Positions 24,017-27,313 of a stretch of 64,000 bases of DNA are shown here, in pieces. A program made the translations under genes and the position numbers. The stretch lies in the NCBI RefSeq assembly GCF_003386795.1, contig NZ_QTUC01000001.1, positions 62,001 through 126,000 of the forward strand, given 5' to 3'. Every line of letters starts with the position of its first letter. Within the stretch, counting starts at the first letter, position 1. The notes beneath the pieces are model-generated. The model ran no database searches. It worked only from the letters and a program-made list of their open reading frames with translations, and was not told where the DNA came from. Source of the stretch: Thermasporomyces composti. Lineage in GTDB: Bacteria > Actinomycetota > Actinomycetes > Propionibacteriales > Actinopolymorphaceae.

Positions 24017-26194
24017 TCACGGCGCACCGGCGGCCGGGCCGTCGTGGCCGGATGAATCTCGCGTTTCGTCGGACGGCGACCTGGTGACGAGTTCGCCGAG
24101 ACGTGCCCGCCACTTCTCGTCACCACCCACGGTCACCAACCGCTGCGTCGCTCGCGTGAGGGCGACGTAAAGGGTTCGGGTACCGACGGGGCTCTCACGG
24201 GCGATCGCCTCCGGCTCGACGACGACGGCGGCGTCGAACTCCAGACCCTTGCTCGCCCGGGCGGTCGTCACGACCACGCGATCATCGGCGGCGAGGCCGT
24301 CCAACCACGACGTGGCCTCGGCTTGCCGCGCTGTGGGCAGGATCACCCCGACAGTTCCCTCCACCTCCTCCAGCATGCGCGCGACCGCGTCGCGCAGCGT
24401 GTCGGCGAGCGGCTCGCCATCCAGGTGGGTGGGGTGGACTCCGGTGGTTCGGACCGCTCGGGGAAGGGGCGCGTCAGAGTCCACCGCCCGGATCACGTCG
24501 GCAGCGAGCGCGAAGATCTCGGCGGAGTTGCGGTAGTTGGTGGTCAGCTGGTACTCGCGGCGCGGACGGTCGCCGAGGGCCGCGTCGCGGGCGCGGGCGG
24601 CCTCCGCGGGGTCCGGCCACGCGCTCTGCGCCGGGTCGCCCACGATCGTCCAGCTCGCGTAGCGGCCCCGTCGTCCGAGCATCCTCCACTGCATGGGAGA
24701 CAGGTCCTGCGCCTCGTCGACCAGGACGTGGGCATAACCATCCGCCTCCCGCGCCGGGGCGGCGTCAGCGTTGACGTCGCCGATGCGCACGTCGTCGGTG
24801 TCGTCCGGGTCCTGTGGTCGAGGAGGCTCGGGTGGCTCACCGAGCAGCCAGGCGAGCTCGTCCAGGAGGGGAACGTCCTCCACCGACCACTCGTCCGTGG
24901 TGGACCACGAGCGGGCGAGCGCATCGATCTCGTCTGGCCGGAGCACACCGTCGGCCGCGCGAGCCAGCCGGTCCGGATCAGCGAGCCAGGCCAGCACCTC
25001 CTCCGGGCGCAGGACTGGCCACCAGGCCTGGACGAAGCTCCAGAACGCGTCCCGGGAGGTGACGTCAGCGATGAAGTCCTCCCGTGGAACACCGGCTTCC
25101 TCCCCGACCTTGCGCCACAGGGCGGCGACCAACGCGCGCGCCGCGTCGGTTCGCGCGCGGTTGTACCGGTTGCGCCGCACCACCGCTCGACGGGCGGCGG
25201 CGAGCTCGTCGGCGTCCAGCCGTAGTTGACGTCCGGCACCGTACAGGCGCAGCTCGCGAGGGACGCCCGGCGCCGCCTCGCGCACGGCCCGCGAGAGCAC
25301 CCGCCGCATGCGCAAGGAACCCTTGACAACAGCGACGTCGTAGGGGTCGGACCGGGTGGCCACGATGCCGTCGACGATCTCACCGACGGAGCGCAAGGTG
25401 GCGTCGTGCTCGCCGAGCGACGGCAGGACCCGTTCGATGTAGGTCATGAACACCGGCGATGGGCCGACGACAAGGACACCACCGCCCTGCAGACGTCGGC
25501 GCTCGGTGTAGAGGAGGTAGGCGGCTCGGTGCAGCGCGACGACGGTCTTGCCCGTCCCGGGCCCTCCGCTGATGATCGTCACTCCCGAGGAGGGAGCACG
25601 GATGATCGTGTCCTGCTCCCGCTGGATAGTGGCCACGATGTCCCGCATGCGCCGGCCACGGGCCGCGGTGAGCGCGGCGATCAACGCTCCGTCACCGACC
25701 ACGTGCATGTGAGGCGGCGCGGCCTGAGGGTCGAGCAGATCGTCCTCGATGCCGACCACTCGCTGACCGTGGCAGCGCAAGACGCGGCGGCGCACGACGC
25801 CCATCGGCTCCACCGCCGTCGCCTGGTAGAAGGTCGCCGCCGCCGGAGCCCGCCAGTCGATCACGAGCGGCTCGTGTTCGGCGTCTCGGACTCCGATCCG
25901 CCCCACGTAGCGCACCTCGCCGTCCCGCTGGTCGAGTCGCCCGAAGACGAGCCCTTCCCGCTGGGCCTCCAGCACGGCCAACCGTCGGACGGCGTGATCG
26001 ACGAGCGCATCTCGCTCGAACAGGCTGCGGTAGTCGTCCTCCTTGATCTCCCCGGTGTAGTCCAACAAGCCCCGCGCGTGTCCGTCGCGACGGACCTCCG
26101 CTACCCGCTCCACCATCTCGTCCAGACGCGTGTAGACGCGGTCCACGTACTCCTGCTCGCGACGGATCTCCTGCTCGATTGTGGTGGGCTCCAC
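24017..26194 (-). CDS. helD: HelD-type UvrD-like helicase, RNA polymerase-associated
   Basis: A 725-residue superfamily 1 helicase-like ATPase. An N-terminal coiled coil (EQEIRREQEYVDRVYTRLDEMVERV) precedes LVIDWRAPAAATFYQAT, a hallmark of HelD. Walker A is GGPGTGKT at ~210-217. Walker B is VLVDEAQDLSPMQWRML, later motifs include VGDPAQSAW and TTNYRNS, and the C-terminal motif is VVTTARASKGLEFDAAV plus YVALTRATQRLV. Actinobacterial HelD removes RNA polymerase from DNA, and some members give rifampicin tolerance. A GTG at 26194 follows AGGGGGA. The frame is open to a TTG 14 codons upstream. It is divergent from the small membrane protein at 26353. Confidence 0.9.
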   Translation of the reverse strand: MEPTTIEQEIRREQEYVDRVYTRLDEMVERVAEVRRDGHARGLLDYTGEIKEDDYRSLFERDALVDHAVRRLAVLEAQREGLVFGRLDQRDGEVRYVGRIGVRDAEHEPLVIDWRAPAAATFYQATAVEPMGVVRRRVLRCHGQRVVGIEDDLLDPQAAPPHMHVVGDGALIAALTAARGRRMRDIVATIQREQDTIIRAPSSGVTIISGGPGTGKTVVALHRAAYLLYTERRRLQGGGVLVVGPSPVFMTYIERVLPSLGEHDATLRSVGEIVDGIVATRSDPYDVAVVKGSLRMRRVLSRAVREAAPGVPRELRLYGAGRQLRLDADELAAARRAVVRRNRYNRARTDAARALVAALWRKVGEEAGVPREDFIADVTSRDAFWSFVQAWWPVLRPEEVLAWLADPDRLARAADGVLRPDEIDALARSWSTTDEWSVEDVPLLDELAWLLGEPPEPPRPQDPDDTDDVRIGDVNADAAPAREADGYAHVLVDEAQDLSPMQWRMLGRRGRYASWTIVGDPAQSAWPDPAEAARARDAALGDRPRREYQLTTNYRNSAEIFALAADVIRAVDSDAPLPRAVRTTGVHPTHLDGEPLADTLRDAVARMLEEVEGTVGVILPTARQAEATSWLDGLAADDRVVVTTARASKGLEFDAAVVVEPEAIARESPVGTRTLYVALTRATQRLVTVGGDEKWRARLGELVTRSPSDETRDSSGHDGPAAGAP

Positions 26195-26352
26195 GGATCC
26201 CCCTGTCGCATGACCGGCCTTGGGCGCGGTCGACAATCAGGCAATCGGGAAAGTCTAGTCCGCGGTGGCGGACACCGAGGACGCCCAGATCTGCGAGATT
26301 GGAAGCGACCTACGGGTGCCGTCGTGGGCTCAAGCGTGCGAGGATCGGTCCT

Positions 26353-26801: not shown

Positions 26802-26905
26802 ACAGCGTCGGTCGCCGCGACCCGGCGCCACGTCGTCACGCACCGCCACGACTGACCGGCTGTCACCGCCCACCCGAGCCATCGAGACGCCAATCGCACT
26901 AACAT

Positions 26906-26921
26906 TCGAACATAGGTTCGA
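26906..26921. promoter_or_regulatory. Perfect LexA (SOS) box
   Basis: TCGAAC-ATAG-GTTCGA is an exact 6-4-6 inverted repeat identical to the Gram-positive/mycobacterial LexA consensus TCGAAC-N4-GTTCGA. It lies 41 bases before the GTG of the small gene at 26963, where it would overlap the promoter. The context is right for SOS repression of that gene. Confidence 0.85.
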
Positions 26922-26962
26922 CCTGTTCCCCTGCCCTAAGACCGACCAGGAGGACAGGCAAC

Positions 26963-27313
26963 GTGATCGATCGTTTCGCAGTGCGCAAGAGCTCGCAGGG
27001 CTTCGGAGTATGGGACGCCGCCGTCAACGGCTGGCACAGCCGCCAGGACCTGTCCGAGGCCGAAGCGACCGCGTTGGCGCGTTCGATGAACGCGGGCCAC
27101 ACCCCACGCGAGGCGCGGACCGGGTCTCGAAGAGTCTCCCCAGCCAAGCCTGTCCTGGTGCTCGTCGACGGTCGCTGGTGGCCGGGACGACTCGACTGGT
27201 GGGTTCGCGAGACCGACGGATGGTACGGCCGAGTCACGCTCGACGACACCGGGGCCAGAAGCTGGTACCCCGCCGCAACACTGCGCCCGGCCAACCCTGC
27301 GCGCTCGTCGTGA
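26963..27313 (+). CDS. Uncharacterised 116-residue protein, probably SOS-regulated
   Basis: I do not recognise a named family with a function. The first ~45 residues (MIDRFAVRKSSQGFGVWDAA, then WHSRQDLSEAEATALARSMNAG) resemble an N-terminal module seen in small actinobacterial hypothetical proteins: a short beta-hairpin with a helix. Residues ~62-110 are Trp-rich and strand-like (VLVLVDGRWWPGRLDWWVRE, GWYGRVTLDD, WYPAATLRP), as expected for an SH3/Tudor-like barrel. A basic linker joins the parts. There is no signal peptide or membrane segment. CAGGAGGA lies eight bases before the GTG. The perfect LexA box just upstream implies induction by DNA damage. It is convergent with the inositol-phosphatase-like gene, with 31 bases between stops. 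Confidence 0.8.
   Translation: MIDRFAVRKSSQGFGVWDAAVNGWHSRQDLSEAEATALARSMNAGHTPREARTGSRRVSPAKPVLVLVDGRWWPGRLDWWVRETDGWYGRVTLDDTGARSWYPAATLRPANPARSS

Follow-up and report, generated by a model that had tools for sequence, protein, structure and literature searches.

A perfect LexA-type palindrome ahead of a small gene in Thermasporomyces composti raises two linked questions: whether LexA controls this gene, and what its product, which resembles no named family, contributes to the SOS response. The window referred to throughout is the whole stretch analysed, 64,000 nucleotides in length.

Architecture of the boxed locus

The palindrome at 26906-26921 (+), TCGAACATAGGTTCGA, carries two arms that fit TCGAAC-N4-GTTCGA exactly, separated by an ATAG centre and located 41 bases from the start codon. 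It matches the Streptomyces venezuelae LexA motif tCGAAC-N4-GNNCGa given in passages of PMC9380542, and departs from the stricter form of mycobacteria, CGAACRNNYGTTCG, at a single position in the centre, where it has G in place of Y. The elements of the locus are as follows.

26900..26905, + strand: possible -10-like hexamer TAACAT, immediately 5' of the box (weak, conjectural)
26906..26921, no strand assigned: LexA operator (SOS box) TCGAAC-ATAG-GTTCGA, perfect 6+4+6 palindrome arms (from the sequence; kept in all Actinopolymorphaceae orthologues)
26948..26953, + strand: ribosome-binding site AGGAGG, 9 bases 5' of GTG (from the sequence)
26963..27313, + strand: SOS-boxed two-domain protein of 116 aa, GTG at 26963, stop codon at 27311-27313 (open reading frame, homologues, dN/dS)
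26963..27100, + strand: predicted N-terminal beta-beta-alpha module, residues 1-46, motif RFxVR..G.GVWDxAVNGW (AlphaFold2, short paralogue, hhalign)
27128..27292, + strand: predicted C-terminal Trp-rich five-stranded Tudor/SH3-like barrel, residues 56-110 (AlphaFold2, Foldseek, VIA-align)

A sigma-70 consensus scan of the locus found no promoter. The 116-aa reading frame is taken to be a real gene because the starts of its homologues align with the GTG and because dN/dS for pairs of Actinopolymorphaceae orthologues lies at 0.04-0.22; the corresponding range in Kribbella is 0.08-0.38, and the protein is under purifying selection. A sequence-only reading of this DNA had proposed a perfect LexA box followed at this spacing by a gene with a good ribosome-binding site and a 116-residue product, and arms, AGGAGG, GTG and reading frame are all borne out.

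Conservation of the operator

The perfect palindrome occurs at 8 sites in the 4.37 Mb host genome, against 1 for a reversed control pattern; a search allowing two mismatches is uninformative in the GC-rich window (19 matches, 18.6 expected). Further boxes in the same genome (G000) accompany lexA (two boxes), recA, dinB and ruvC, whose names were assigned by eye from the translated sequences, and an imuA'-imuB-dnaE2 operon, in which imuB and dnaE2 are confirmed by Pfam and imuA' is assigned by position. Since these are canonical SOS genes, the organism has an ordinary actinobacterial LexA system, and the operator type is that of the LexA regulons of S. venezuelae and mycobacteria. The 116-aa family differs from those regulons in lacking a Pfam or NCBIfam model and in being absent from the S. 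venezuelae LexA targets in passages of PMC9380542.

The box follows the gene across the Actinopolymorphaceae and Kribbellaceae. With at most two of 12 mismatches it lies within 100 bp upstream at 51 of 54 homologous loci, and with at most one at 45 of 54; control windows give 7/324 and 0/324, respectively. Majority identity across five loci, with near-identical ones excluded, reaches 98% in the box arms versus 55% in the flanks. An orthologue of 59-81% identity is present in each of the seven other Actinopolymorphaceae genomes, and in every one the box stands about 50 bp ahead of it; both arms are perfect in six, and the last base differs in the seventh (G007). The Kribbella box, mostly TAGAACN4GTTCGA, holds a fixed position at -35/-36 even where paralogues and orthologues share no more than 40-45% identity, and this variant is a normal operator in the genus, because dnaE2 itself bears it in one Kribbella genome (G053, locus L161). 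In A. alba, a decayed copy interrupted by an internal stop (L013/L025) has lost both start region and box and is a natural negative control. One locus that lacks the box, L104, has a transposase gene just upstream.

Related homologues lacking the box had been named in advance as evidence against LexA control, and the count over the 54 loci favours that claim instead. Judged by these comparisons, the box is not a chance occurrence, and control of the 116-aa gene by LexA, for which the comparative support is strong, is highly probable. It is very probable that the gene belongs to the bacterial SOS response, as a member that is new and has no name.

Family distribution and a short boxed paralogue

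Full-length homologues of 40-50% identity are present in many of the sampled genomes of a group (f3/g5) that we take to be Kribbella from its DnaE2-linked gene content, with up to five copies per genome. About 250-400 genomes of the class were searched with a profile, with a short protein as query and with two motif patterns, and nothing convincing emerged outside the two families; the profile search scored only 11 candidates per genome, a depth at which very distant members could escape. This class sample probably contains no Kribbella, because no Kribbella copy surfaced in it. Motif-pattern matches in G540, G451, G549 and G318 are unrelated proteins with no box at the expected place and were set aside. 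Among the genomes sampled, the 116-aa family was thus found only in two families of non-pathogenic soil bacteria, Actinopolymorphaceae and Kribbellaceae, and collections of phage, plasmid and viral sequences hold no homologue.

All eight Actinopolymorphaceae genomes also contain a reading frame of 47-50 aa, which begins 31-37 bases after a perfect TCGAAC-N4-GTTCGA box. A two-domain profile aligned by hhalign with a profile built from the short proteins only gives E 3.4e-10, and a plain search with the short protein as query recovers the gene of the window (E 1.5e-4); the 47-50 aa protein is thus the N-terminal module alone. In the host genome this mini-protein has 47 aa and is encoded at G000:C1:376273-376413 (-) (L063), near a methionine aminopeptidase-like reading frame; a gene of this size is easily overlooked by gene callers.

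Gene neighbourhoods

In Kribbella, the translesion polymerase gene dnaE2 lies divergent and within about 4 kb of the boxed gene at 24 of 48 copies. Nine copies, among them the diverged paralogues L108 and L112, stand head-to-head with dnaE2, their starts separated by 99-137 bp, an arrangement in which one operator could serve two promoters. This linkage partly reflects shared ancestry. In G053, dnaE2 and the boxed gene, about 4 kb apart, each have their own TAGAACN4GTTCGA operator, and the association there is therefore not merely that of one shared operator. An IF-1 (infA)-like gene (PF01176) precedes the boxed gene by ~300 bp at ten Kribbella loci, L078, L084, L087, L090, L091, L094, L096, L099, L100 and L103, and relatives of it occur in 13 loci.

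The nine shared intergenic regions invite the reading that the box is real while the product is a passenger with no SOS role, the operator being kept for neighbours such as dnaE2. We consider this highly unlikely: the box persists, at a constant distance from the gene, at loci lacking a nearby dnaE2, including all those of Actinopolymorphaceae, the protein itself is under purifying selection, and a second paralogue has a box of its own.

The Actinopolymorphaceae block consists of a HelD/HelR-like helicase gene, a holin-like gene, the boxed gene, IMPase, uvrB and coaE, with G007 arranged differently. The helicase gene of the window (24017-26236, -) encodes a HelD/HelR-like RNA polymerase-recycling helicase, scoring 440 bits against NCBIfam HelR, under the cut-off of 1100; it is divergent from the phage-holin-like gene upstream of the boxed gene, a synteny kept at four of six sister loci.

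A diverged Kribbella group resides in islands together with a Prim-Pol (PF09250), an ATP-dependent DNA ligase (PF01068) and a C5 methyltransferase. Its loci are L106, L107, L109, L110, L113 and L115, of which L106, L107, L110 and L113 resemble integrative-element islands with Prim-Pol, mostly accompanied by the ligase or the methyltransferase; at L106, L109, L110 and L115 an unannotated reading frame of 79-81 aa without a Pfam match follows directly downstream. These islands with their downstream frame, further copies that adjoin integrase- or recombinase-like genes (assigned by eye) and the copy number of up to five are consistent with a family spread on integrative elements, in which the LexA-induced protein would aid excision, replication or transfer following damage and the chromosomal copies would be domesticated. 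We regard this reading as unlikely, since the window copy belongs to a syntenic chromosomal block at five of six sister loci examined and the phage, plasmid and viral collections lack the family.

Sequence features and predicted fold

Pfam, NCBIfam, PHROG and PADLOC contain no family matching the 116-aa protein, in agreement with the initial impression that it has no recognised function. The sole PDB sequence match, 5ako, is weak (E 0.61) and was taken as chance. An AlphaFold2 model built from four sequences (pLDDT 81.5) places a beta-beta-alpha module before a five-stranded barrel, whose strands span residues 56-109 with pLDDT mostly 85-91. Modelled alone, the N-terminal module reaches pLDDT 87; its fold matches are weak (Z <=3.8, including the HicB N-terminus and an integrase arm-binding domain) and were not used. 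Within an 11-sequence alignment, residues W17, D18, N22, W24, W80, W87 and W101 are invariant.

Foldseek and VIA-align comparisons pair the predicted barrel with Tudor and chromo-barrel domains at Z 7-8, the best match (Z 8.0) superposing 50 residues at an rmsd of 1.4. The predicted five-stranded barrel is a trait shared with the Tudor/SH3-like barrels of PHF1/PHF19, TDRD3 and the integrase C-terminal domain, but identity to the best Tudor matches is only about 14-16%, no Foldseek hit falls below E 0.01, and Pfam detects no Tudor domain. For so small and common a fold, such a match is best read, at the level of the model, as one of architecture and not of function. A hairpin/helix N-terminal part, an SH3/Tudor-like C-terminal part and a small soluble product had all been suggested beforehand; the model agrees with this division, and comparison and model together give good support to a two-domain soluble architecture. 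Small proteins sharing only the Trp-rich C-terminal barrel, with no LexA box, occur at L014 (G003) and L062 (G326, a distant class member), the latter on the same contig as a tyrosine-recombinase-like reading frame.

The barrel could belong to a nucleic-acid or nucleoid binder that contacts DNA non-specifically or at damaged structures. Its fold matches include the retroviral integrase SH3-like barrel (Z 7.6, 26% identity, 51 residues) and a PWWP domain bound to ssDNA, and the window protein has a pI of 10.7. Fold likeness alone shows no function, however, and the net charge is not conserved, ranging from +5 in the window protein to -7, with -6 to -7 in several Kribbella homologues. Variable charge combined with fixed residues suggests dedicated contact surfaces and not DNA binding in general, and we hold a nucleic-acid or nucleoid binder to be quite improbable.

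A further candidate role is that of an SOS checkpoint protein, which would bind a cell-division or replication factor and delay the cell cycle as SulA, YneA, SidA and SosA do. Small SOS-induced proteins often act in this way in other bacteria, SosA (PMC6851548) among them. The present family resembles these inhibitors in being small and under LexA-type control, and it occupies its own, tightly LexA-boxed transcription unit. It differs from them in showing no membrane segment (no long hydrophobic stretch is seen on inspection of the sequence by eye), in the absence of division genes from its recurrent neighbours and in being multi-copy; up to five copies per Kribbella genome would be odd for a division inhibitor. 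SosA, YneA and SidA each have a membrane segment. We hold a checkpoint role to be improbable.

A candidate role in damage-tolerant DNA synthesis

Three roles had been proposed from the sequence: checkpoint, repair accessory factor and nucleoid binder. The second fits best, given the dnaE2, Prim-Pol and ligase neighbours, while the nucleoid binder sits poorly with charges from +5 to -7. We tentatively favour, as a reading with not quite an even chance of being right, an SOS-induced two-domain adaptor that makes protein contacts with the machinery of damage-tolerance DNA synthesis; its partners, the direction of its effect and any role in mutagenesis are matters we infer.

In the undamaged cell, LexA bound to the box would repress transcription, a step with strong comparative support. 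RecA filaments would then trigger LexA self-cleavage, and the protein would be made alongside DinB, RecA, RuvC and ImuA'-ImuB-DnaE2, as expected from established SOS biology and the boxes found. Once made, it would work through protein-protein contacts, with the N-terminal module (RF.VR...GVWD.AVNGW) binding one partner and the Trp-rich Tudor-like barrel a second, possibly a peptide or a nucleic-acid end. Together the two domains would either assist or curb damage-tolerance DNA synthesis, with the DnaE2 mutasome as the likeliest target. The 47-50 aa paralogue of the Actinopolymorphaceae, binding the first partner without a barrel, could serve as co-subunit or competitor.

Against this reading, the Actinopolymorphaceae gene does not adjoin dnaE2 but stands between the phage-holin-like gene and the IMPase-uvrB block, and the Kribbella linkage owes something to common descent. 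Nor is the protein a core part of the mutasome, because dnaE2 is far more widespread than the 116-aa family. A precedent is offered by SRAP and ImuB-C proteins, which were proposed as SOS components on the strength of similar gene neighbourhoods involving ImuA/ImuB/DnaE2, Ku and ATP ligase (PMC3765255). The family shares with the ImuA'-ImuB-DnaE2 mutasome and standalone ImuB-C proteins its LexA control, small size, Trp content, dnaE2 linkage and, in the islands, an ATP-dependent ligase, and it may likewise act as an accessory adaptor; its domain plan, in contrast, is different and its distribution narrow. Kinship with ImuB-C was considered and rejected at the sequence level, at which hhalign against the ImuB C-terminus of G000 gives E 0.73 and a probability of 0.1%.

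A bolder proposal, which we hold to be rather unlikely, is that the family forms a new class of accessory subunit in the SOS translesion synthesis of Actinomycetota: a Tudor-like adaptor, paired with a separate short form of its binding module under the same switch, would tune the DnaE2 mutasome and would additionally have moved onto integrative elements along with Prim-Pol and ligase.

Taken at the level of comparative sequence analysis, the loci appear to define a real, well-conserved LexA-controlled gene family, and the SOS response of soil actinomycetes would thereby gain an unnamed protein family together with its 47-50 aa mini-protein counterpart. The comparative evidence is solid enough to warrant a knockout, and the linkage with dnaE2 raises the question of whether error-prone repair in this phylum employs accessory factors beyond ImuA' and ImuB. 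SOS mutagenesis of this kind underlies the evolution of drug resistance in actinobacteria.

Other palindromes in the host genome

The lexA locus (L004, G000:C1 460105-463120) carries its two perfect boxes 67 bp apart, with an nrdR-like gene on the opposite side. Perfect LexA palindromes to which no SOS gene can readily be assigned are located at G000:C1:222194, 641800 and 3567506; the first lies between methyltransferase and FAD oxidoreductase genes, and the second ~0.9 kb from a xerC-like gene.
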